Of a DNA stretch of 64,000 bases, positions 7,951 through 47,822 are shown one piece after another. Source of the stretch: an uncultured Polaribacter sp. (GTDB lineage: Bacteria; Bacteroidota; Bacteroidia; Flavobacteriales; Flavobacteriaceae); contig NZ_CANMBY010000001.1 of assembly GCF_947496195.1 (NCBI RefSeq), positions 558,001 through 622,000 on the forward strand, read 5' to 3'. The position numbers and the translations under genes are program-made. Below the pieces are notes generated by a model. It did not search any database, had not been told where the DNA came from, and saw nothing but the letters and a program-made list of their open reading frames with translations. Within the stretch, counting starts at the first letter, position 1; each line of letters starts with the position of its first letter.

Positions 7951-8619
7951 CTAGTTTTTCAAATCTTGGATGATTTGCATTGCTTCTCTAGTCATGTTTT
8001 CAATTTTGTTATAGTCGTAATTACCACTATTATCTTTTGCTATAAGTTTAGAGCCCATACCCACACAAGTTACACCTGCATTAAACCAGCCTTCTAAATT
8101 TTCTTTAGTTGGTGAAACACCACCTGTTGGCATTATACTTGTCCATTGACAAGGACCTTTTATTGCTTTTACGAAATCAGGCCCATAGATTCCTCCTGGA
8201 AATAATTTTACAATTTCGCAACCTAATTCTTCTGCTCTTGCTATTTCTGTTAAAGACCCACAACCTGGAGACCATAATACTTTTCTTCTATTACAAACAA
8301 GGGCAATATCTTCTCTTAAAACTGGAGTTACAATAAAATTCGCACCATTTTGCATGTATAAAGAAGCTGCTGCTGCATCTGTTACAGAACCAACACCCAT
8401 AATCATACCTGGTAATTCTGCTATTGCATATTTTGTTAATGCTGTAAAAACTTCTAAAGCAAAATCTCCACGAGCTGTAAACTCTAATAATCTTGCACCA
8501 CCATCATAACATGCTTTTAATACTTTTTTACTAACTTCTATATCACTATTAAAAAATAAAGGAACTAAGCCTGTATCTTTCATTACTTGAGCTACTTCTA
8601 ATCTTGAATATTGTGCCAT
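7951..8619 (-). CDS. kdgA: KDPG/KHG aldolase (Entner-Doudoroff)
   Basis: 222 residues; class I aldolase splitting 2-keto-3-deoxy-6-phosphogluconate into pyruvate and glyceraldehyde-3-phosphate. Key residues are visible: E46 in LLEFTARG, and the Schiff-base Lys K138 in CEIVKLFPGG, close to E45 and K133 of E. coli Eda. PTGGVSP (164-170) forms the phosphate-binding loop. It lies 12 bp after the second KDG kinase, so kinase and aldolase make one operon of consecutive pathway steps. Expression is likely set by the LacI-type operator upstream of kdgK2, and transcription ends at the hairpin just downstream. Length and motifs are typical of the family; confidence in function is high. Confidence 0.93.
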   Translation of the reverse strand: MAQYSRLEVAQVMKDTGLVPLFFNSDIEVSKKVLKACYDGGARLLEFTARGDFALEVFTALTKYAIAELPGMIMGVGSVTDAAAASLYMQNGANFIVTPVLREDIALVCNRRKVLWSPGCGSLTEIARAEELGCEIVKLFPGGIYGPDFVKAIKGPCQWTSIMPTGGVSPTKENLEGWFNAGVTCVGMGSKLIAKDNSGNYDYNKIENMTREAMQIIQDLKN

Positions 8620-8631
8620 AATTTCTTGGTT

Positions 8632-9678
8632 TTATCTTGCTACTCTACCAGAAGCATCACCTCCCATTAATTTTTCTACTTCAGAAACTGTAACTAGGTT
8701 AGCATCTCCTTTTATTGTATGTTTTAAACAAGAAGCAGCTACTGCAAAATCTAATGCATTTTGATCATCTTCTGGGTATTTTAATAATCCATAGATTAAT
8801 CCTCCCATAAAAGAATCTCCTCCACCAACTCTATCTACAATATCAGTAATTTGATACTGGCGAGTTTCGTACATTTTTTCTCCATCATATAAAACTCCTG
8901 CCCAAGTATTATGAGAAGCAGAAATTGATCCTCTTAATGTTGTGATTACTTTTTTAGCTCTTGGAAACTTTTCCATCATTTGTTTACAAACCGATAAGAA
9001 AGCTTCTGCTTTTACATCATGACCATGTTTATGAACATCTAAACCTTCTGGATGAATTCCAAAATGTTTTTCAGCATCTTCTTCATTTCCTAAAACTACA
9101 TCACAATAAGAGGTAAGTTCTGTCATCACTTTTTCTCTATGAGCATCATCACAATATTTCCAAAGTTTAGCTCTATAATTTAAATCTGTAGAAATAGTAA
9201 CTCCTTTAGCACTAGCAGCTTTAACAGCTTCTAAACAAGCATCTGCTGCACCTTGAGAAATAGCTGGTGTAATACCTGTCCAATGAAACCATTCTACACC
9301 TTCAAACACAGTATCCCAATCTATCATTCCAGATTCTATTTCTGCAATTGCAGAATGTGCTCTATCATAAACCACTTTAGAACCTCTAGAAACTGCACCA
9401 GTTTCTAAAAAATAAATTCCTAAACGATCTCCTCCCCAAACAATTTTATTAACATTAACTCCTCTTTTACGCATTTCCATCATTGCACACTCACCAATAT
9501 CGTTTTTTGGTAATCTTGTTACAAAATCTACATCTACACCATAATTTGCTAAAGAAACTGCTACATTCGATTCTCCTCCACCATAAACTACATCAAAATT
9601 ATTGGCTTGCGAAAATCTTAAAAACCCTTGTGGAGCTAATCTTAACATGATTTCTCCAAACGTTACTACTTTACCCAT
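8632..9678 (-). CDS. kdgK: PfkB-family 2-keto-3-deoxygluconate kinase paralogue 2
   Basis: 348 residues; phosphorylates KDG to KDPG, which the adjacent aldolase then cleaves. VYGGGESNVAVS (about 31-42), the intact N-x-x-E region GNEEDAEKHFGI (about 201-212), the anion-binding Arg context TTLRGSISASH, and DRVGGGDSFMGGLIYGLL with its catalytic Asp are all present. This is the canonical copy; paralogue 1 at 3302 has lost the N-x-x-E region. The gene heads the kdgK2-kdgA operon, divergent from the LacI-type regulator, and an operator palindrome sits 31 bp before its start. Substrate is inferred from family and location. Confidence 0.9.
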   Translation of the reverse strand: MGKVVTFGEIMLRLAPQGFLRFSQANNFDVVYGGGESNVAVSLANYGVDVDFVTRLPKNDIGECAMMEMRKRGVNVNKIVWGGDRLGIYFLETGAVSRGSKVVYDRAHSAIAEIESGMIDWDTVFEGVEWFHWTGITPAISQGAADACLEAVKAASAKGVTISTDLNYRAKLWKYCDDAHREKVMTELTSYCDVVLGNEEDAEKHFGIHPEGLDVHKHGHDVKAEAFLSVCKQMMEKFPRAKKVITTLRGSISASHNTWAGVLYDGEKMYETRQYQITDIVDRVGGGDSFMGGLIYGLLKYPEDDQNALDFAVAASCLKHTIKGDANLVTVSEVEKLMGGDASGRVAR

Positions 9679-9708
9679 TTTTGTATAAATTTTAATTGGT
9701 TAATTATC

Positions 9709-9727
9709 TGCTTAAACGTTTAACCAA
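9709..9727. promoter_or_regulatory. LacI-family operator, kdgK2 side
   Basis: TGCTTAAACGTTTAACCAA contains the perfect palindrome TTAAACGTTTAA (9712-9723) centred on CG, the typical LacI-family form. It lies 31 bp upstream of the kdgK2 start. The operator on the lacI side is an inverted near-copy. Confidence 0.8.
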
Positions 9728-9768
9728 ATATTTAAATAAAAATCAAAACCTTTATTTTAATAATTGTT

Positions 9769-9816
9769 TTGATTGTTCTAATTGAAACAGTATATTTGTT
9801 TAAACGATTAAGCAAA
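9769..9816 (+). promoter_or_regulatory. lacI-type gene promoter and autoregulatory operator
   Basis: TTG (9769-9771), a 19-bp gap and TATATTTG (9791-9798) give a full Bacteroidota promoter. TTGTTTAAACGATTAAGCAAA (9796-9816) overlaps the -7 box and is the reverse-complement near-match of the operator at 9709-9727. It ends 11 bp before the start codon, so the regulator probably represses itself. Confidence 0.8.
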
Positions 9817-9827
9817 TATATAAAAAT

Positions 9828-10856
9828 TTGGCAAAAAAAAACAAAACAACCATAAAAGATATTGCAAATGTCTTAAATATATCTGCTGCAGCTGTTTCTA
9901 AAGCACTCCATAACGACTCTAGAATAAGCGAAAAAACTAAAAAAGCTGTAAGGCAAGTTGCAGAAAATTTAAATTACCAACCTAATCATCTTGCTAGTGC
10001 TTTAAGAAGTGGTAAAAGTAAATTAGTTGGCGTAATTGTACCAAAAACCAATAGTAATTTTTTCTCTGCTACAATACATAATATAGAAGAAGTACTTAAT
10101 AAAGAAGGCTATAATATTATCATTACCCAATCTAACGAGTCGTATAAAAAAGAATGTGAAAATATAGACACTTTGTTGTTTACACAAGTTGATGGTATTA
10201 TTGTTTCTATGGCTAATGAAACTGTAGATTTACAACATTTTGAAAAAGTAAAACAAGCTGGTATACCTTTAATTACTTTTGATAGAGGTGAAAATGATTT
10301 AAATGTAGATTATATTGGTATTGATGACTATGATAGTAGTCATAGAATCGTTGATCATTTAGTTGAACAAGGCTGTAAACGTATTGCTCATATTGGAGGT
10401 TTTAAGCATACCAGAATTTATAATAATAGAATTAGAGGTTATATAGATGCTTTAGAAAAACATAATTTACCTTTAGAAAAAGAACTTTTGCTTGAGAGTA
10501 ATTTATCTACAGAAGATGGTAGAAATAAAATGCAAGAATTATTAGCCTTAGATAAAAAACCTGATGCAGTTTATGTTGCTGGAGATTATGCAGCACTAGG
10601 AGCATTGCAAGTTTTAAATGAAAAAAATATTAAAATACCTGATGAGATTGCTTTAGTAGGTTTTGGTGATGAGCCTTTTGCAAATATGGTAACTCCCAAA
10701 ATGACTAGTGTAAATCAACACAGTTATCAAATAGGAAAAATAGCTGCAGAAAAATTTTTAGAATACACAAAACAAAATCAAATACAACAAACTTTACAAA
10801 AACATATTTTAAAGGCTGAATTAATTATTAGAGAATCTTCTTTAAAGAAAAAATAA
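9828..10856 (+). CDS. LacI-family transcriptional regulator of the KDG/KDPG operon
   Basis: 342 residues starting at TTG; no suitable ATG lies upstream and the HTH begins within a few residues. Residues about 7-55 form the LacI helix-turn-helix and hinge (TIKDIANVLNISAAAVSKAL, then LNYQPNHLASALRSGKSKLVG). The rest is a periplasmic-binding-protein-like effector domain (IGVIVP-like GVIVPKTNSNFF, DGIIVS, ITFDRG, YIGIDDY, PDAVYVAGDYAALGAL, GFGDEPFANMVTPKMTSVNQ). It is divergent from kdgK2-kdgA with mirrored operators between them, so the most likely job is control of that operon and of itself. The effector is unknown; KDG, KDPG or DEH are reasonable guesses. Confidence 0.9.
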   Translation: MAKKNKTTIKDIANVLNISAAAVSKALHNDSRISEKTKKAVRQVAENLNYQPNHLASALRSGKSKLVGVIVPKTNSNFFSATIHNIEEVLNKEGYNIIITQSNESYKKECENIDTLLFTQVDGIIVSMANETVDLQHFEKVKQAGIPLITFDRGENDLNVDYIGIDDYDSSHRIVDHLVEQGCKRIAHIGGFKHTRIYNNRIRGYIDALEKHNLPLEKELLLESNLSTEDGRNKMQELLALDKKPDAVYVAGDYAALGALQVLNEKNIKIPDEIALVGFGDEPFANMVTPKMTSVNQHSYQIGKIAAEKFLEYTKQNQIQQTLQKHILKAELIIRESSLKKK

Positions 10857-10888
10857 AAAAGGCCAGATATAAAATCTGACCTTTTTTT
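10855..10888. terminator. Bidirectional terminator between lacI-type gene and ssb
   Basis: AAAAAAGGCCAGAT / ATCTGACCTTTTTTT, one C-A mismatch in the stem, A-run before and T-run after. It serves the two convergent genes. Confidence 0.85.
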
Positions 10889-10889
10889 G

Positions 10890-11222
10890 CTAATTGCCTA
10901 ACATTAACAACTCATTACAAACAATTTCTGTGACATATCGTTTATCACCTTCTTTTGTTTCATAACTTCTAGAAGTTAATTTACCTTCTATAGCTACTTC
11001 TTTTCCTTTTTCTAAATACTTTTCAATAATATCTGCTGTTTTATTCCAAGCTACAATATTGTGCCATTGTGTGTCTGTTACTTTTTCTCCTTTTGCATTT
11101 TTATAATTTTCATTTGTTGCTAAAGAGAATTTTGCAAGTTTTTTACCACTTTCTAAAGTGATGATTTCTGGAGCGTTTCCTAAATTTCCAATTAACTGAA
11201 CTTTGTTTCTTAACGTACTCAT
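10890..11222 (-). CDS. ssb: Short single-stranded DNA-binding protein without acidic tail
   Basis: 110 residues from MSTLRNKVQLIGNLG at 11222; a 16-residue upstream extension is unlikely because the OB fold begins at residue 4. The OB-fold pattern is clear: VQLIGNLGNAPEI, GKKLAKFSLATNE, DTQWHNIVAWNKTADIIEKYLEKGKEVAIEGKL and YVTEIVCNELLML. The protein ends in LLMLGN straight after the last strand, with no Gly/Pro-rich linker and no DDDIPF-type tip for recruiting repair proteins. It is therefore more likely a secondary SSB than the replicative one. Convergent with the lacI-type gene, sharing a terminator. Confidence 0.88.
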   Translation of the reverse strand: MSTLRNKVQLIGNLGNAPEIITLESGKKLAKFSLATNENYKNAKGEKVTDTQWHNIVAWNKTADIIEKYLEKGKEVAIEGKLTSRSYETKEGDKRYVTEIVCNELLMLGN

Positions 11223-11354
11223 AAGATAAGGTTTTAAATTATTATTTGTCAATTCGTTTTGACACTGCAAAGATGAAACTGATTAGAAACAAAAATCGGT
11301 TGTTAATCGTTTGTTTTCGTTTGTAAATGAATGTAATCGTTTATTATTTTTTAA

Positions 11355-11362
11355 TATATTTG
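11355..11362 (+). promoter_or_regulatory. -7 element for the zinc-ribbon gene
   Basis: TATATTTG lies 37 bp before the TTG start at 11400. No TTG is found at the proper -33 distance, so only the -7 half is supported. Confidence 0.5.
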
Positions 11363-11399
11363 TAATCAGAAAGTTAGTGTTAATTAAAATTGTTGTTTT

Positions 11400-39322: not shown

Positions 39323-40369
39323 TCAATTCTTCAAAGAATTCCAACCCTGAGCTTTCAGTTCAATTTCTTGGTTGGCTCTCGTAATTAATTGTAACCCTTG
39401 GTTTTCTTCTGTAATATGCCCTATAATCGAAAAGTTCGGATTGCCTTTTATCTTGTCAAAATCAGAAATGGGTACAGTAAATAGCAACTCATAATCTTCA
39501 CCTCCACTTAAAGCCACCATTGTTGAATCTAATTCAAATTCTTCGCAAGTAGAAATCACTTGAGGATCCAAAGGCAGTTTATCCTCATAAATTTTACATC
39601 CAACTTTACTTTGTGTACAAATATGAAATAGCTCTGAAGAAACTCCATCAGAAATATCAATCATACTTGTAGGTTTTACTTCAAGTTCTTTTAATAAACC
39701 AGAAATATCTTTACGTGCTTCAGGTTTTAATTGACGTTCAATTAAATACGTGTATGCGTCTAAATCTGGTTGATTATTTGGATCTACTTGAAACACTTGC
39801 TTTTCTCTTTCCAAAACTTGTAACCCTAAATAGGCTGCACCTAAATCTCCTGTAACTACAATTAAATCAGTTTCTTTAGCACCATTTCTATAAACCACTT
39901 CATCCTTATTTGCTTTACCAATAGCAGTAACAGAAATTAAAATTCCTTTGGTAGATGAAGTTGTATCTCCGCCAATTAAATCAACTTTATAAGTATCACA
40001 AGCTAATTGAATTCCTGCATACAACTCCTCAATCGCTTCTAATGGAAATCTATTAGAGACTGCAATAGAAACTGTAATTTGTTCTGCTGTACCATTCATA
40101 GCATACACATCAGATAAATTAACCATAACAGCTTTGTATCCTAAATGCTTTAAAGGCATATAACTTAAATCAAAATGTACACCTTCTATTAACAAATCTG
40201 TTGTTACTAAAGTTTGTTTTTCTGAGGCATCTAAAACTGCTGCATCATCACCAACTGCTTTTATGGTTGATGAATTTTCAACTTTAAAATATTTTGTAAT
40301 ATGATTAATTAAGCCAAATTCTCCTAATTCAGCCAATGAAGTTCTATTTTGGTTTTTATCTTCTAACAT
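39323..40369 (-). CDS. thiL: Thiamine-monophosphate kinase
   Basis: 348 residues; phosphorylates thiamine monophosphate to the active diphosphate. The metal/ATP motifs are AVGDDAAVLD (near 39-48), EGVHFDLSYMPLKHLGYKAVMVNLSDVYAMNG, LIGGDTTSS, VTGDLGAAYLGL and the C-terminal MIDISDGVSSELFHI and GGEDYELLFTV. Typical length. Single gene. Its promoter lies so close to the ATG that the mRNA should be leaderless, which leaves no room for a TPP riboswitch. Confidence 0.95.
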   Translation of the reverse strand: MLEDKNQNRTSLAELGEFGLINHITKYFKVENSSTIKAVGDDAAVLDASEKQTLVTTDLLIEGVHFDLSYMPLKHLGYKAVMVNLSDVYAMNGTAEQITVSIAVSNRFPLEAIEELYAGIQLACDTYKVDLIGGDTTSSTKGILISVTAIGKANKDEVVYRNGAKETDLIVVTGDLGAAYLGLQVLEREKQVFQVDPNNQPDLDAYTYLIERQLKPEARKDISGLLKELEVKPTSMIDISDGVSSELFHICTQSKVGCKIYEDKLPLDPQVISTCEEFELDSTMVALSGGEDYELLFTVPISDFDKIKGNPNFSIIGHITEENQGLQLITRANQEIELKAQGWNSLKN

Positions 40370-40476: not shown

Positions 40477-41913
40477 ATGAAACTTAAATCAATTTTACTT
40501 TTATTCGCAATTTTTATACTTCACTTTTCTTGTTCTAAAGATGAAGTTAATTTAGATATCGATAATGATGGTATAGAAAATACAATAGATAACTGCCCAA
40601 ATACTGCAAATGCTAATCAATCTGATACAGATGGAGATGGTATTGGAGATACTTGTGATGATTTTAACGATTCTGATAATGATGGTGTAGAAGATTTTGA
40701 AGACAATTGTCCTAATACTGCAAACCCAAACCAAGAAGATACAGATGGTGATGGAGTTGGAGATGTTTGTGATACTACAGTTTCGAATAAAGTACCTTGT
40801 ACAAATGGTTTTGCTGGTATATATCCATGTAAAGATTACGATCTTCTATTGCATTTACCTATGTCTACTTTTGGTTCTCAAGAAGCAAATGATTCTTGGG
40901 GCTGGACAGATGTAACAACCAATAAAGAATACGCAATTATGGGTGTATTAGATGGTACTGTCTTTGTTGATATTTCTGATACAGAAAACCCAATTTACTT
41001 GGGTAAATTACCTACAAGAACTGTAAATAGTGCTTGGAGAGATGTAAAGGTTTATGAAAATCATGCTTTTATTGTAAGTGAAGCTTCAAATCATGGCATG
41101 CAAGTTTTCGATTTAACAAGATTAAGAAATGTAGCAAACCCTCCAGAAACGTTTACATCTGATGTTGATTTTACAGATTTTGGAAATGCTCATAACATCG
41201 TTATTAATGAAGATTCTGGCTTTGGATATGCTGTTGGAACAAATCAATTTGGAGGTGGGCCATTTTTTATAAATATTCAAAATCCAAAAAATCCAGTTGC
41301 AGCAGGTGGTTTTTCTTCTGGTGGATATTCTCATGATGCACAAGTAGTAACTTATAATGGCCCTGATACAGATTACACAGGTCAAGAAATTTTAATTGGC
41401 AGTAATGGTGAAAGAAATGGTGCTAATGAAGTGGTGATTACAAACGTAACAGACAAAAATTCAGTAACAAGAATTGCTAAAATAGATTATTCAAATGATG
41501 GTTACACACACCAAGGATGGTTTACAGAAGACCAGCGTTATTTTATTGTTGGTGATGAGTTAGACGAATTAGAAGGTGATGTAAATACTACTAGAATATT
41601 GATTTTTGATTTGTTAGATCTAGACAATCCTGTATTATTATCTGAATATTTTGGACCAACAGAAGCTATAGATCATAATGGTTATGTAAAAGGTAATACT
41701 TTCTTTTTAGCAAACTATAGAGCAGGAGTTAGAATGCATGATATTTCTAATATTGCAGCTGGTACTATGACAGAAACTGGGTATTTTGATACTTACCCAA
41801 ATGATGATAGCACTGCCTTTAATGGAGTTTGGAATGTATACCCTTTCTTTGATAGTGGTAAAATTTTAGTAAGTGATATAGAAAAAGGAATGTTTATCCT
41901 TCAGAAAAAATAA
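40477..41913 (+). CDS. Choice-of-anchor B lipoprotein with thrombospondin type 3 repeats
   Basis: 478 residues; lipoprotein signal ending in FSC. Residues about 25-108 hold two thrombospondin type 3 calcium-binding repeats (DIDNDGIENTIDNCPNTAN, DTDGDGIGDTCDDFNDSDND and DTDGDGVGDVCDTT). The rest is an LVIVD-type propeller of the choice-of-anchor B family (HLPMSTFGS, WGWTDVTTNKEYAIMG, DGTVFVDISDTENPIYLGKLPT, SEASNHGMQVFDLTRLR). It heads a run of four exported-protein genes ending in the MbnP/MbnH-like pair, with gaps of 9, 4 and 3 bp. A surface role is inferred; no catalytic residues are seen. Confidence 0.87.
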   Translation: MKLKSILLLFAIFILHFSCSKDEVNLDIDNDGIENTIDNCPNTANANQSDTDGDGIGDTCDDFNDSDNDGVEDFEDNCPNTANPNQEDTDGDGVGDVCDTTVSNKVPCTNGFAGIYPCKDYDLLLHLPMSTFGSQEANDSWGWTDVTTNKEYAIMGVLDGTVFVDISDTENPIYLGKLPTRTVNSAWRDVKVYENHAFIVSEASNHGMQVFDLTRLRNVANPPETFTSDVDFTDFGNAHNIVINEDSGFGYAVGTNQFGGGPFFINIQNPKNPVAAGGFSSGGYSHDAQVVTYNGPDTDYTGQEILIGSNGERNGANEVVITNVTDKNSVTRIAKIDYSNDGYTHQGWFTEDQRYFIVGDELDELEGDVNTTRILIFDLLDLDNPVLLSEYFGPTEAIDHNGYVKGNTFFLANYRAGVRMHDISNIAAGTMTETGYFDTYPNDDSTAFNGVWNVYPFFDSGKILVSDIEKGMFILQKK

Positions 41914-41922
41914 AAACCTATT

Positions 41923-43248
41923 TTGAACAAGTTTTTCTATTACATCTCTATTTGTATTATTTGTTTTTCTTGCACTAAACAAAGCGTAAATTTTGGAGGT
42001 AACACTCAATCTTTAACAATTGATGTAATAAAAACACTTGGAGGCTCTAAAAATGATGCTTTTTCATCTATAAAAAAAACTACTGATGGTGGCTTTATAG
42101 CTGTTGGCTATGCTCAAAGTTCAGATTTTGATATCAGCAATAAAAATAATGATAGTTATGACTATTGGGTAGTTAAATTTGATGCTGCAAATACTGTAGA
42201 ATGGAGTAAAACTTTTGGAGGTTCTGATGATGATAGAGCAAGAGATATTTTACAACTTTCAGATGGTTCTTTCTTAATAACTGGTTTTAGTAGAAGTAAT
42301 GATATAGATGTCACTTTAAATAGCGGAAATTACGATTTTTGGGTTCTTAAAATTAATATTGATGGAACCTTAGTTTGGGAAAAAAGTTTTGGGTTTTCTG
42401 GTGCAGATCAATCCTACATCATAAAACAAACAAGTGATGGTAATTTTCTTTTAGGAGGCTCTTTAGACGTTACTGCTTCTGGTGGCCAAGGAAACTCAAA
42501 AACAAGTAAACGTCATGCAGGAGGTGATTATTGGCTAATTAAAATAGACGAAAATGCAAATAAACTTTGGTCTAGGTATTATGGAGGTCAGTTTACAGAT
42601 ACACTTTTAGATATTGCTGAAACTGAAAAAGGAGATTATTTACTAACTGGGTATAGTGATAGCAGTGATACAGATATTTCTAACAACTTAGGCGAATACG
42701 ATTTTTGGATTGTAAAAGTAAATAAGACTGGAGATGTAATCTGGGAGAGAAATTTTGGAGGATCACAAATAGATGAAGCTTTTTCGATTACTAAAACAAC
42801 AGACAATCATTTTTTAATTGCTGGTAATACAAGAAGTGCTAACAAAGATGTAACTCTAAATAACGGTTCATCAGACATTTGGGTTATTAAAATTAACTCA
42901 GATGGAACATTAATTTGGGAACGTAATTTTGGAGGAACTTCATTTGATAATGCTAATAAAATTATTTCTGCAGAAAGAGGAGGGTTTTATGTTGTAGGTA
43001 GTTCTAGAAGTTCAGACATAGATGCAGCATCTAACTTTGGAAACAAAGATGTTTGGATTTTAAAAATAGATGCTACAGGAAATTTACAGTGGCAAAAAAA
43101 TATTGGTGGTAGTAATTTAGATGAAGCTAGCTCAGTAATAGAATTACAAAATGGTTCATTAATTGTTTCAGGAGAATCTTGGAGTTCTGATAATGATATT
43201 CTAGAAAACAAAGGCTTTTCTGATGGTTTAATAGTAGTTTTAAAATAA
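41923..43248 (+). CDS. Repeat-propeller lipoprotein
   Basis: 441 residues, TTG start 9 bp after the preceding stop. The lipoprotein signal ends in CFSC. Seven or so repeats of about 55-60 residues follow the pattern FGGS-x-D-A-x-x-I-x-x-T-x-DGG-F-x-x-GYS-x-SSD-D-x-x-NNG-x-YDFWVVKI-x-x-x-G-x-x-x-W-x-K, as expected for a beta-propeller. No T9SS tail and no catalytic motif are visible. It is the second gene of the MbnP/MbnH-like cassette. Function unknown. Confidence 0.8.
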   Translation: MNKFFYYISICIICFSCTKQSVNFGGNTQSLTIDVIKTLGGSKNDAFSSIKKTTDGGFIAVGYAQSSDFDISNKNNDSYDYWVVKFDAANTVEWSKTFGGSDDDRARDILQLSDGSFLITGFSRSNDIDVTLNSGNYDFWVLKINIDGTLVWEKSFGFSGADQSYIIKQTSDGNFLLGGSLDVTASGGQGNSKTSKRHAGGDYWLIKIDENANKLWSRYYGGQFTDTLLDIAETEKGDYLLTGYSDSSDTDISNNLGEYDFWIVKVNKTGDVIWERNFGGSQIDEAFSITKTTDNHFLIAGNTRSANKDVTLNNGSSDIWVIKINSDGTLIWERNFGGTSFDNANKIISAERGGFYVVGSSRSSDIDAASNFGNKDVWILKIDATGNLQWQKNIGGSNLDEASSVIELQNGSLIVSGESWSSDNDILENKGFSDGLIVVLK

Positions 43249-43252
43249 TACA

Positions 43253-44002
43253 GTGAAAAAAATAATTTGGTTTTTTGTCATCATCGCATTTACTTCTTGT
43301 AAAGACGATACAGATTGTTGTGTTAATCTAGAACCTGTAAATGTTACCCTAAAATTTACGCATAATTGGGATGGAACTCCTGTAACAGCATCAGATTTTA
43401 ATTCATTTAATTATGTTACAGAAAATGGAGAATCTGTGAGCATAGAAAGATTAAGATATGTAGTTTCTAATGTTAATTTAGGTGGCGAATCTAAACCTTA
43501 TCAGCTTGTTGATTTAGGAATTAATTCAGGTTTTGAAATCACCTTTAACAATGTTGCTCAGGGTGTAAATAATTTAAATTTCACATTCGGATTTTCAGAT
43601 GCAGATAACATAGATGGTGTTTATCAAGATTTAAATACAGTTTCATTTAATGTTCCAGGCATGTTAGGTGGTGGTTATCATTACATGCAATTTGATGGTA
43701 AATACAAAGACACTAACAATCTAGATGCGAATTTTAATTATCATGCAATTAGAGCTGTTAATAGATCTGACCCAAATAATTTGATTTTTGAAGACACTTC
43801 ATTTTTAGTAGATTTTGGCAGTGTAACCATTACAAATAAAGCCACAATTGAAATAAAGATGAATATTGCTGAATGGTTTAAAAATCCAAATACCTGGAAT
43901 TTAAACCAACTAAACACTGTTTTAATGCCAAATTTCGAAGCTCAAAAATTAATAAGTGCTAATGGAAAATCTGTATTTTCTTTAGGTGATATTTTACAAT
44001 AA
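43253..44002 (+). CDS. MbnP-family lipoprotein (putative copper binder)
   Basis: 249 residues, GTG start 4 bp after the preceding stop. The lipoprotein signal ends in AFTSC16. The beta-rich body matches the MbnP family: VNVTLKFTHNWDGTPVTASDFNSF (about 26-50), VSIERLRYVVSNVNL, GVNNLNFTFGFSD and GGGYHYMQFDGKYKD. In studied MbnP proteins a Trp is oxidised to kynurenine by the partner MbnH, which creates a tight copper site. Candidate Trp residues here include those in HNWDG, AEWFKNP and NTWNL, but I cannot say which would be used. The MbnH-like gene follows by 3 bp. Methanobactin genes are absent, so a wider copper role is inferred. Confidence 0.8.
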   Translation: MKKIIWFFVIIAFTSCKDDTDCCVNLEPVNVTLKFTHNWDGTPVTASDFNSFNYVTENGESVSIERLRYVVSNVNLGGESKPYQLVDLGINSGFEITFNNVAQGVNNLNFTFGFSDADNIDGVYQDLNTVSFNVPGMLGGGYHYMQFDGKYKDTNNLDANFNYHAIRAVNRSDPNNLIFEDTSFLVDFGSVTITNKATIEIKMNIAEWFKNPNTWNLNQLNTVLMPNFEAQKLISANGKSVFSLGDILQ

Positions 44003-44005
44003 AAT

Positions 44006-45061
44006 ATGAGGAAAATAGGGTTAAATTTAATTTTTATTTTTTGTCTGATGAGCTGTTCCTCTTCAGAAGAAGAGTATATACCTGTTCCTTATCAACTAGA
44101 AATACCTCAACTTTTTAAAGAAAAATTAATAGCTCCTGCTATACCAAATAATAATCCATTAACACAAGAAGGGGTTGCTTTAGGTAAAAAACTTTTTTTT
44201 GATAAAAAACTTTCTGGTGATGGTACACAATCTTGCGCAAGCTGTCATCATCCACAAAAAGCATTTACAGATAATTTACAATTTAGTGTTGGAATTGATG
44301 GTAAACAAGGAAGCAGAAATTCAATGCCATTATTTAATTTAGCTTGGAATTTTGATGAAAAATTTGCTTGGGATGGAAAAGACTTTACACTAGAAAATCA
44401 AGCTCTAGAACCTGTTGCAAACCCCATAGAATTGCATGCAGATTGGAGAAAAGTTGCAGAGCGTTTACAAAACGACGCTGAATACCCGACTTTATTTAGC
44501 CAAGCTTTTGGTACCACAAAAATCGATTCTACATTAATCACAAAAGCTTTAGCACAATTTGAAAGAACTTTAATTTCTGGAAATTCAAAATTCGATAAAT
44601 TTTTACTTGGTGAAGTTGCTCTAACTCCAGAAGAACAAAATGGATTTGACGTATTTATGGATGAAGCTAAAGGCGATTGTTTTCATTGTCATGGAAGTAA
44701 TAACAATCCTCTATGGACAGACAATCAATTTCATAACAATGGTTTAGATCGTTCTTTCACAGATTTAGGTTTGGGTGTAGTAACTGGAGATCCTGCAGAT
44801 CATGGAAAATTTAAATCGCCCTCATTAAGAAATCTAAAATTTACAGCACCATATATGCATGATGGACGATTTGCAACTTTAGAAGAAGTCATTAATCACT
44901 ATTCAGAAGGATTACAAGCTTCACCAACTATAGATCCTTTAATGAAAAAAGTAAATCAAGGAGGGGTAAACTTAACTCCAAAAGATAAAGCTGACCTAAA
45001 AGCCTTTCTACTAACACTTTCTGATGAAGAGTTTATCAACAATCCAGACTTCAAAGAATAA
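44006..45061 (+). CDS. Di-heme cytochrome c peroxidase/MauG family lipoprotein (MbnH-like)
   Basis: 351 residues; lipoprotein signal ending in LMSC. Two c-type heme sites are present: CASCH at 77-81 and CFHCH at 225-229. KAFTDNLQFSVG and AWDGKDFTLENQALEPV match the bacterial cytochrome c peroxidase/MauG family, and PYMHDGRFATLEEVINHYSEG is the C-terminal family signature. The gene follows the MbnP-like gene by 3 bp, so an MbnH-like role (oxidising a tryptophan of its partner) is more likely than peroxide detoxification. The last gene of the four-gene cassette; the suf operon begins about 100 bp later with its own promoter. Confidence 0.85.
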   Translation: MRKIGLNLIFIFCLMSCSSSEEEYIPVPYQLEIPQLFKEKLIAPAIPNNNPLTQEGVALGKKLFFDKKLSGDGTQSCASCHHPQKAFTDNLQFSVGIDGKQGSRNSMPLFNLAWNFDEKFAWDGKDFTLENQALEPVANPIELHADWRKVAERLQNDAEYPTLFSQAFGTTKIDSTLITKALAQFERTLISGNSKFDKFLLGEVALTPEEQNGFDVFMDEAKGDCFHCHGSNNNPLWTDNQFHNNGLDRSFTDLGLGVVTGDPADHGKFKSPSLRNLKFTAPYMHDGRFATLEEVINHYSEGLQASPTIDPLMKKVNQGGVNLTPKDKADLKAFLLTLSDEEFINNPDFKE

Positions 45062-45128
45062 TCAATAAAACCAATGGTTTCATTAGTCTTGTTAATACGA
45101 ATTTAACTTTTTTGTTGAAGTTATATCG

Positions 45129-45136
45129 TATATTTG
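45129..45136 (+). promoter_or_regulatory. -7 element of the suf operon
   Basis: TATATTTG, 33 bp before the ATG at 45169. The nearest TTG (45112-45114) is 14 bp away, shorter than usual. No Fur- or IscR-like site was recognised. Confidence 0.5.
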
Positions 45137-45168
45137 CAGACAATTTAGATTTAATCTATGTAAACATT

Positions 45169-45498
45169 ATGATAAAGGTATCAGACACAGCAAAGAAAAA
45201 AGTCAGAGAGTTGATGCAAGAAGATGGCTTTAACCCAAGCACAGACTACGTTAGAGTAGGTGTAAAGAGTGGTGGTTGTTCAGGTTTATCCTATGATTTA
45301 ACTTTCGATAATAAACAAGAAGAAAACGATAAGATTTTTGAAGAAAATGAGGTAAAAATCATTGTTGATAAAAAGAGCTTTTTATATTTAGTAGGTACCA
45401 CTTTAGAGTATTCAGGTGGTTTAAATGGTAAAGGCTTTGTTTTTAATAACCCAAACGCAAATAGAACTTGTGGTTGTGGAGAATCATTTTCACTTTAA
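45169..45498 (+). CDS. sufA: Iron-sulfur assembly scaffold/carrier protein, HesB/IscA type
   Basis: 109 residues from MIKVSDTAKKKVRELM at 45169; a longer start at 45112 would overlap the -7 element. The three conserved cysteines are in SGGCSGLSYDL and RTCGCGESFSL. It delivers Fe-S clusters to target enzymes. It is the first gene of the suf operon, 12 bp before sufB. Confidence 0.93.
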   Translation: MIKVSDTAKKKVRELMQEDGFNPSTDYVRVGVKSGGCSGLSYDLTFDNKQEENDKIFEENEVKIIVDKKSFLYLVGTTLEYSGGLNGKGFVFNNPNANRTCGCGESFSL

Positions 45499-45510
45499 AA
45501 AAAGACAAAC

Positions 45511-46959
45511 ATGTCAAAATATACAGAAGACGACTTAAAAGAAGAATTAAAAACCAAAGAATATGAATATGGTTTTTATACTGATATAGAAAGTGATAAG
45601 TTTGAGAAAGGTTTAAACGAAGATGTAGTTCGTGCTATTTCTAAAAAGAAAAACGAACCAGAATGGATGACTGAATGGCGTTTAGAAGCTTATAGAGTTT
45701 GGGAAAAAATGACAGAGCCAGAATGGGCTAATGTTAAATATCCTAAACCAAACTTTCAAGAAATTGCTTACTACTCAGCTCCAAAGAAAAAACCAAAATT
45801 AAATTCTTTAGACGAAGTAGATCCAGATTTATTAGAGACTTTTAAGAAACTAGGAATTTCTATAGACGAACAAAAGAAGTTAGCCAATGTTGCTGTTGAT
45901 ATTGTTATGGACTCTGTTTCTGTGGCAACAACTTTCAAGAAAACATTAGCAGAAAAAGGTATTATTTTTATGCCAATTTCTGAAGCAATTCAAGAACATC
46001 CTGAGTTGGTTAAAAAATATTTAGGAACTGTTGTACCTACAACCGATAATTTTTATGCAGCTTTAAATTCTGCAGTATTTTCTGATGGTTCTTTCTGTTA
46101 TATTCCAAAAGGCGTAAAATGTCCAATGGAATTGTCAACTTATTTTAGAATAAATGAAGGAGGTACAGGGCAGTTTGAAAGGACTTTAGTCGTTGCAGAT
46201 AAAGGAAGTTATGTTTCTTATTTAGAAGGCTGTACTGCTCCACAAAGAGATGAAAACCAATTGCATGCTGCAGTTGTAGAATTAATAGCTTTAGACGATG
46301 CAGAAATAAAATACTCTACTGTACAAAACTGGTTTCCTGGAGATGCAGAAGGTAAAGGTGGTGTATTTAACTTTGTTACCAAAAGAGGTTTATGCGAAAC
46401 CAATGCAAAAATTTCTTGGACACAGGTTGAAACTGGTTCTGCAGTCACTTGGAAATACCCAAGCTGTATTTTAAAAGGAAACAACTCTGTAGGTGAATTT
46501 TATTCGATAGCAGTAACAAATCATTTTCAACAAGCAGATACTGGAACTAAGATGATTCATTTAGGTAAGAATACCAAATCAACTATAATTTCTAAAGGTA
46601 TTTCTGCTGGTAAATCTCAAAATAGTTATAGAGGACTTGTACAGGTAAATTCTAGAGCCGAAAATGCTCGTAATTTCTCTCAATGTGATTCTCTTTTAAT
46701 GGGTAATGAATGTGGTGCACATACTTTTCCATACATAGAAGCTAAAAATAAAACGGCTCAAATAGAACACGAAGCTACCACTAGTAAAATTGGTGAAGAC
46801 CAATTATTCTACTGTAACCAAAGAGGTATAGATACAGAAAAAGCAATTGCTTTAATTGTAAACGGTTTTAGTAAAGAGGTTTTAAATAAATTACCAATGG
46901 AATTTGCTGTTGAAGCTCAAAAATTACTAGAAATTAGCCTAGAAGGTTCTGTAGGATAA
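45511..46959 (+). CDS. sufB: Fe-S cluster assembly protein SufB
   Basis: 482 residues; scaffold of the SufBCD complex where new Fe-S clusters are built. Typical stretches include [42 protein letters not shown]-like [28 protein letters not shown] and the C-terminal [21 protein letters not shown]. The family's conserved Cys appears in SQCDSLLMG. sufC follows only after an unrelated metallo-hydrolase gene. Confidence 0.97.
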
Positions 46960-46982: not shown

Positions 46983-47822
46983 ATGAAAAAATTACTTTTC
47001 TTATTTATTGCTGTTAGCATTGTAAGTTGTAAAAATTCTGATAAAAAGGTTGAAGAAACTAAAAAACCAGAAGTAAAGCTATTCCAATTAGTTGGTGGTT
47101 CTATATTGGTTAAAAAATTAGAAGTTTTTTCTCAAGATACTACTTATACTGGGCAGTCTAAACAATTTACAGATGCTTACTATGTAATATCTCATCCCAA
47201 AGGAAACTTAATGTGGGATGCAGGTTTACCAGAACAATTGGTAATGCCAGAACCTTATGATGAACCAAGTGGAGTGTATAGAATTCAAAGACCAGACTCT
47301 CTAGCAAATCAATTAAAATCTATAGGTTTTAAAATTAATGATTTTAAATACTTTGCTATGTCTCACTCACATTTTGATCATACAGGACATGCAAACTATT
47401 TAAAAGACGCTACTCTATTAATTCAAGAAAACGAATATAATGCTAACCTAGCAGATACATTACAACAAAAAAATGCTGCTATGAATGCTTTAACTAATGT
47501 TAGAAAAATCAATGGAGATTATGATGTTTTTGGTGATGGTACTGTTGTCATTAAATACATGCCTGGTCATACAATTGGTCATCAAGTATTATATGTTGAA
47601 GTTGCAGGTTTAGAAAAACCAGTTCTTTTGACTGGTGATCTATATCATTTTGAAGAAAACAGAGAAAATAAAGGAGTGCCATCTTTTAATTACGATGTAA
47701 AACAAACCTTAGAAAGTATGGATAAGTTTGAGGCTTTTGCTAAAGAAAAAAATGCAACAGTTATTATTCAGCACTCTCCAAAAGATTATAAAAAATTAGA
47801 AAATTTATTAAATAGCTTATAG
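46983..47822 (+). CDS. Metallo-beta-lactamase-fold lipoprotein inside the suf operon (AHL-lactonase-like)
   Basis: 279 residues; lipoprotein signal ending in IVSC16. Zinc ligands are clear: SHSHFDHTGH (H128, H130, D132, H133), the His of MPGHTIGH, the Asp of LTGDLYHF and the His of IIQHSPKD. The pattern is closest to the N-acyl homoserine lactonase subfamily, but lactone, phosphoester or other substrates are possible. It lies between sufB (23 bp upstream) and sufC (30 bp downstream), on the same strand and probably the same transcript. Its envelope location sets it apart from the cytoplasmic Suf machinery, so a shared role is unclear. Confidence 0.87.
   Translation: MKKLLFLFIAVSIVSCKNSDKKVEETKKPEVKLFQLVGGSILVKKLEVFSQDTTYTGQSKQFTDAYYVISHPKGNLMWDAGLPEQLVMPEPYDEPSGVYRIQRPDSLANQLKSIGFKINDFKYFAMSHSHFDHTGHANYLKDATLLIQENEYNANLADTLQQKNAAMNALTNVRKINGDYDVFGDGTVVIKYMPGHTIGHQVLYVEVAGLEKPVLLTGDLYHFEENRENKGVPSFNYDVKQTLESMDKFEAFAKEKNATVIIQHSPKDYKKLENLLNSL

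Follow-up and report, generated by a model that had tools for sequence, protein, structure and literature searches.

Proteins of the MbnP/MbnH type are understood through a single reaction, in which a di-heme enzyme makes a kynurenine and hence a copper site. The residue that becomes kynurenine in the known MbnP is reportedly the first Trp of a WxW motif. The substrate of MauG is methylamine dehydrogenase. In CorA, as described in PMC3912023, copper is bound by two His and a water, and a kynurenine lies in the second sphere at 2.9 Å. The MbnP/MbnH pair was reported in 2013 to be conserved far past methanobactin producers, its relevance to methanobactin being called unclear in that account (PMC3621798); MbnPH-like genes have been described in operons with copper-related genes (PMC9426467), and the role of mbnPH is called unknown or speculative in a passage of PMC9601215. 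The locus analyzed here lies in a stretch of 64,000 nucleotides from an uncultured Polaribacter sp. (NZ_CANMBY010000001.1, positions 558,001 to 622,000; the window) and consists of four consecutive lipoprotein genes, A, B, P and H, the last two encoding an MbnP/MbnH-type pair. A literature search, with most subscription journals outside its reach, returned no title or abstract on this locus.

P was matched by the Pfam MbnP family (PF20243) with 85.8 bits, above the gathering cut-off of 27. An AlphaFold2 (AF2) model of P with a predicted local distance difference test (pLDDT) score of 93.6 superposed on MbnP of Methylosinus trichosporium (PDB 7l6g) with Z 15.6 over 207 residues and a root mean square deviation (rmsd) of 3.8. 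The top five Foldseek matches were all 7l6g (E 4e-6 to 2e-5, template modeling (TM) score 0.50-0.56 of the query); the Foldseek and VIA rows ranking below the MbnP match (Z up to 7.3) were put down to widespread fold arrangements. At the sequence level a profile of the GGG type, the type of the window P, found no MbnP in the PDB at E 10, and P did not match TIGR04052 (MbnP_like_WxW, 'MbnP family copper-binding protein') at E 0.1. Four WxW relatives matched that model with E 2e-11 to 8e-14 at just 44-52 bits and so also fell below its curated cut-off of 140 bits; failing the cut-off alone is therefore not decisive. One GGG protein of family f19 gave E 0.0011. The window's genome held no second PF20243 match besides P. 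H was matched by CCP_MauG of Pfam (E 6e-60) and by the MbnH family TIGR04039 (E 2e-82) with 277 bits, below the curated 362.85; four other H of the phylum were also under this cut-off (199-272 bits). The best solved structure for H was PDB 6e1c, 'Di-heme enzyme' (E 1e-60), which we take to be MbnH. The pairing of an MbnP-family with a MauG-family protein, as put forward in the original prediction, is borne out by these matches.

For comparison, 199 genomes were drawn across the window's own family. PF20243 was found in 99 of them, at 110 places; 80 loci were fetched, 77 of them around at most 77 of these places, and made up with the window a set of 81 loci with one P each. By hhalign (E 1.8e-31), F132 and V134 of the window P fell on the two Trp of the WxW motif and a four-residue insertion formed the LGGGYH loop; 7l6g itself aligned with a WxW. 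The region ended in GGGYH in all 55 GGG cassette P of the set (window included) and the other 26 P read WxW, while three further cassette P (L224, L226, L227) were also GGG. A P tree separated an LGGGYH clade holding the window P from a WxW group, the GGG side also taking in a long f33 row with WxW (L121) and an f42 row in which GGG is interrupted (L175).

Residue 132 was Trp in 48 and Phe in 7 of the 55 GGG cassette P, and in 87 same-family GGG proteins position 132 was Trp in 53 and Phe in 34, position 134 being Val in 76 and Trp in 11. Among the best 80 of 469 named loci, ranked by likeness to the window and therefore biased towards it, residue 132 was Phe in 68, Trp in 10 and Leu in one (L273, Polaribacter sp. 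IC073, with H in place), with one unparsed row (L298) that reads as Phe; the named set overlaps the family genome set (e.g. G163, L305) and the two counts are not additive. Phe132 was accompanied by Phe147 in 32 of 34 F rows as against 8 of 53 W rows, which looks like a compensation in packing to which shared descent contributes. Parsimony on the P tree placed two W-to-F changes, the F rows lying in two starred groups; a single origin was not rejected by the approximately unbiased (AU) test (p 0.20). P of f19 and f42 read M-x-W-P, like the canonical M-x-W, and the canonical Trp could thus correspond to position 134 instead of 132. Since the window P has Trp at neither position, the conclusion stands in either register: its sequence shows no residue at the WxW place on which the known Trp-to-kynurenine chemistry could occur. 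The kynurenine copper site that the original prediction implied was consequently rejected for this position, Phe also being the prevailing residue there in the 80 named relatives closest to the window.

H keeps both heme motifs and the MauG-type residues that were compared. Residues W122, Q132, E142 and Y299 align with W93, Q103, E113 and Y294 of MauG, in MauG-type enzymes the inter-heme Trp, the Gln, the Glu and the axial Tyr, and are conserved, like H81 and H229, in every one of the 55 H that partner a GGG-type P, among them the 7 of F type. The ratio of nonsynonymous to synonymous substitution rates (dN/dS) of H was 0.064-0.107 in 10 pairs (8 from F rows, 2 from W rows), some of which share a member; an eleventh pair was left out for want of an H in the sequence retrieved. 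Judged by residues and rates, the window-type H is intact and under purifying selection. Trp was found at 114 (51/55), 147 (53/55) and 237 (55/55) of GGG-partner H and at none of these places in 26 WxW-partner H. Because the pair is kept across many relatives despite loss of the modified residue, H probably does something other than convert Trp to kynurenine here.

Near full-length B (E 5e-123 or better) was present in 99 of the 199 genomes, termed B carriers, and the B profile matched 103 at E 1e-40. P lay directly downstream of B, by coordinates, at 67 of the 110 P places, and in 67 of 199 genomes, an arrangement too frequent for chance; A, B, P and H occurred in that order in 58 of the 81 loci, in one case (L109) with two genes between P and H. 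The refuting condition first set for the locus, propeller genes unlinked to mbnPH in relatives, did not come true: 67 of the 99 B carriers had P directly behind B, and 32 had no adjacent P. When the window genes were used in tblastn searches, iscA and sufB turned up in each of the 54 GGG cassette loci other than the window's own, and thiL in 49 of them; the 32 loci with A-B only gave sufB in 30, thiL in 30, and neither P nor H. A fixed four-gene unit was accordingly rejected. From gene order, the slot beside suf, usually between thiL and iscA-sufB, is one with nested contents, A-B or A-B-P-H, and comparison among many relatives supports a link of the MbnP/MbnH-type pair to two propeller lipoproteins. 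A tree of B, built from 97 rows by a quick method, placed the A-B-only loci on one side of a branch (Shimodaira-Hasegawa-like approximate likelihood ratio test (SH-aLRT) 99), pointing to one gain or one loss of P-H.

P and H appear to travel together. An H tree of 88 rows split GGG-type from WxW-type H (SH-aLRT 100), parallel to the P clades. Six cassettes (L098, L108, L109, L209, L210, L211) carried a WxW-type P behind A-B; their H formed a single group inside the WxW-type H (SH-aLRT 94), and the three of their P that were placed in the P tree fell in a starred group. With WxW-type pairs grouped in the same slot, the P-H pair was probably exchanged as one unit behind A-B at least once. In 6 of the 80 named loci, and likewise in L145 and L153, H was missing directly after P. 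Ten genomes were searched (eight with H-less loci, two for comparison) and all held an H 73-79% identical to that of the window; G584 and G675, with identical coordinates, were counted as one, leaving seven distinct genomes with P and H apart and the H elsewhere 73-78% identical. In G588 (L321, L322) thiL-A-B-P and H-iscA-sufB were ∼19 kb apart in opposite orientation, apparently as after an inversion.

Within the genus, 22 genomes had no match or a weak one (G639 not counted), and the 14 of at least 99% completeness were examined. None of these 14, all without a strong GGG P, held a cassette-like B, the weak B match set in one lying inside a 1,329 aa frame. An A gene without B was present in 5, each time beside a divergent gene of 348-349 aa (the size of thiL). 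One (G631, L323:7272-8147) held a cognate but truncated H, which matches from residue 58 and stands directly between thiL and iscA, as if A, B and P had been deleted along with the beginning of H. Other di-heme proteins, 32-45% identical, were present in 10 of the 14. Outside the slot, 37 of the 43 P places away from B were read and none was of GGG type. Three f19 genomes carry a GGG-type P-H, followed by a TonB-dependent receptor gene (the identification was made in L173); L175 of f42 has a relative. The A2 profile matched 71 of 395 phylum genomes, mostly weakly, and the 21 weaker matches that were read (L121-L141) have WxW.

A was matched by TSP_3 of Pfam (E 6e-20) and by TIGR04312 (choice_anch_B, E 6e-164) with 545.6 bits against a curated cut-off of 100. 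No Pfam or NCBIfam model matched B above cut-off. The AF2 model of B (pLDDT 89.8) is a confident 7-bladed propeller and superposed on the CylK propeller with Z 48.2 over 376 residues (rmsd 2.1, 27% identity), and phmmer aligned the two with E 3.8e-35. A CylK-like alkylation chemistry was not adopted for B, since the propeller alone is common to both. Of the two propeller partners first proposed, B has its fold from model and comparison, while a propeller fold of A is presumed from its LVIVD-type family.

The candidate metal site of P is drawn from residues conserved in the GGG set and not in the WxW group, namely His143, Met145 and Met225, together with His164 (counts in the table). The P model has strand 145-152 followed, after a short turn, by strand 158-165; if the two form a hairpin, residues 143-146 would adjoin 164-165. 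We favor, with a probability of about 0.45, a co-evolving envelope MbnP/MbnH-type pair that probably binds Cu(I) through a new His/Met set and whose di-heme enzyme works without the canonical Trp-to-kynurenine step. The locus would be a conserved cell-envelope locus of the Flavobacteriaceae in which an A-B module sits beside suf and P-H follows in two thirds of B carriers. P would still bind Cu(I) at the cell surface with His143, Met145, His164 and perhaps Met225, with no need for kynurenine; H, by high-valent di-heme chemistry, would oxidize P elsewhere (Trp208 and Trp215 being candidates) or the metal bound to P; and the propellers may act as docking or presentation platforms for P-H on the outer membrane.

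Several observations weigh against this proposal. The 32 B carriers without an adjacent P do not support a four-protein machine, and in f19 and f42 the sequence retrieved around P-H shows neither A nor B. Trp132 is kept in 53 of 87 GGG relatives, in which kynurenine may still form. Where MauG has Trp199, H has Glu220. The same-genus genomes behind co-loss and unlinking are related and not independent of each other. It is also conceivable, with rather less confidence, that the locus is a further MauG-type maturation system, in which a different oxidation replaces the Trp-to-kynurenine step and a His/Met site the kynurenine copper site.

With the canonical Trp lost from P, H would have to work on a different residue or on the metal, or serve as a peroxidase. 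In the first case H would modify a different Trp of P (W208, W215), or some residue of A or B, by a new oxidation and so create a new protein-derived cofactor. H remains intact and selected although the canonical Trp is gone, W215 is present in 87 of 87 and W208 in 82 of 87 same-family GGG proteins, and the GGG-partner H carry their own Trp at 114, 147 and 237. W208 is also found in f19 and f42, but W215 is replaced there by Tyr; conserved Trp may moreover be structural, and A and B in the 32 loci free of P and H need no modification by a neighboring H. We regard this explanation as unlikely on balance.

A role of H as a surface peroxidase or redox-stress enzyme, with P as a scaffold and copper without a role, would agree with membership of H in the di-heme CCP/MauG superfamily (the CCP_MauG match above). 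A Tyr at the MauG 294 position marks MauG and not peroxidases, and H has this Tyr; the fold of P, moreover, is still that of MbnP and its His/Met set is conserved, which makes such a role doubtful. Equally doubtful is the view that A-B and P-H are unrelated lipoprotein units sharing an operon by descent only. The single branch of A-B-only rows, for which one gain or loss suffices, is consistent with it, as are G588, where P stays with A-B and H with suf, and f19, where GGG-type P-H has no A-B nearby. On the other side stand the two deep P-H types found in the same slot behind A-B, the lack of GGG type among the P places read away from B, and G631, which lacks A, B and P together with the first part of H. 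Formation of kynurenine by H from a WxW Trp of P for a copper site, for which the MbnP fold and MbnH-type partner, the WxWP kept by some GGG members (Trp134 in 11/87) and the canonical WxW pairs in the same slot of six cassettes could be cited, is very improbable, being refuted by the sequence at the WxW site in the window's genome (F132 and V134, no TIGR04052 match, no other PF20243 protein).

Table. Features of the A-B-P-H locus and its flanks; coordinates are positions in the window.
Feature	Coordinates	Strand	Description
thiL-like gene (flank)	39323..40369	-, divergent	AIR synthase domain, PF00586
A	40477..41913	+	lipoprotein, TSP3 repeats and choice-of-anchor-B (LVIVD-type) domain, 478 aa
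B	41923..43248	+	lipoprotein, 7-bladed SBBP/delta-60-like propeller, 441 aa, TTG start
P	43253..44002	+	MbnP-fold lipoprotein, LGGGYH clade, 249 aa, GTG start
P codon 132 (Phe)	43646..43648	+	place of first WxW Trp (MAFFT and profile-profile alignment)
P codon 134 (Val)	43652..43654	+	place of second WxW Trp (alignments)
P residues 139-145, GGGYHYM	43667..43687	+	clade motif; H143 87/87, M145 79/87
P His164	43742..43744	+	87/87 GGG clade, 26/26 WxW group
P Met225	43925..43927	+	87/87 GGG clade, plus 3 f19 and 1 f42
H	44006..45061	+	di-heme MauG/MbnH-type lipoprotein, 351 aa
H heme motifs			CASCH (residues 77-81), CFHCH (225-229)
H Tyr299	44900..44902	+	aligned with MauG Tyr294; 55/55 GGG-partner H
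iscA-like gene and sufB (flank)	45112..46959	+	PF01521, PF01458

The four-gene arrangement was confirmed as first described: the open reading frame (ORF) coordinates give intergenic gaps of 9, 4 and 3 bp and the starts ATG, TTG, GTG and ATG. By eye, the translations have a lipobox-like Cys near the N-terminus (A C19, B C17, P C16, H C17); some A proteins of other loci have a plain signal peptide in place of the lipobox, and in L045, L050, L069 and L072 at least 3 tandem choice-of-anchor-B genes stand upstream of B. Promoter and terminator scans gave signals at chance level. A particular promoter pattern is typical of Bacteroidetes; no instance of it was found near the cassette, and the window holds 6 against 7.9 expected. 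Downstream, a gene of metallo-beta-lactamase fold, lipoprotein-like by eye, lies between sufB and sufC (46983-47822), a place taken in many relatives by an ORF of 120-150 aa instead.

Further arrangements were recorded in other loci. In L109 (G179) a WxW-type cassette has P and H separated (7969-11384) by genes for a sensor kinase, which carries regulator-propeller repeats, and for a response regulator of LuxR type; local regulation is possible. In L110 (8681-10030) the gene behind a WxW P-H pair encodes a YHYH-domain protein whose tail is of the type IX secretion kind. Breaks between P and H were seen in Polaribacter-type loci (L230, L240, L241, L248, L253, L262); in L240 P is now followed by a gene for a metallophosphoesterase and an operon of Bat/MoxR type, and in L241 and L262 by genes of similar sizes. 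A second context of WxW P-H (L033-L036, L038, L040, L041, L043) has upstream genes of ∼307 aa and 662 aa, the former with a weak YtkA-like match in L033 and the latter without a Pfam family; in each of its eight H the Tyr299 place is taken by Phe or Leu.

The original account of the locus is, as a whole, partly supported. Its statement that methanobactin and copper-transport genes are absent holds for the MbnB family (PF05114), which had no match in the whole genome, MbnC not having been searched; for copper transport it covers the eight flanking genes only. GGG members that have a cognate H but no reacting Trp leave two readings: the pair serves some other function, or the protein can fill its role without kynurenine. 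Trp, Phe, Met and Leu all occur naturally at a single position, variants that can be tested directly in cultured marine bacteria; the surface locus itself occurs in roughly one in three of the same-family genomes sampled (67/199).

Compared with the methanotroph MbnP/MbnH (7l6g, 6e1c), the window shares an adjacent gene pair, the MbnP fold and a di-heme MauG-type partner, and differs in that P has no WxW Trp and carries a four-residue insertion, that the cassette includes propeller partners and that the genome has no PF05114 match. CorA/CorB and MopE/SACCP, kynurenine copper proteins compared here by description, resemble it as a surface copper protein with a di-heme partner, as far as they are described in PMC3912023; they differ in a copper site of two His, a water and a nearby kynurenine, the window P having no Trp at its WxW place. 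B is the same 7-bladed propeller as the C-terminal propeller of CylK, but the match spans only CylK residues 249-651 and the rest of CylK has no counterpart in B. H agrees with MauG in both heme motifs and in the four aligned residues W93, Q103, E113 and Y294, and departs from it in scoring 207 bits with the TTQ_mauG model, against 444, and in having no Trp at the place of MauG 199.

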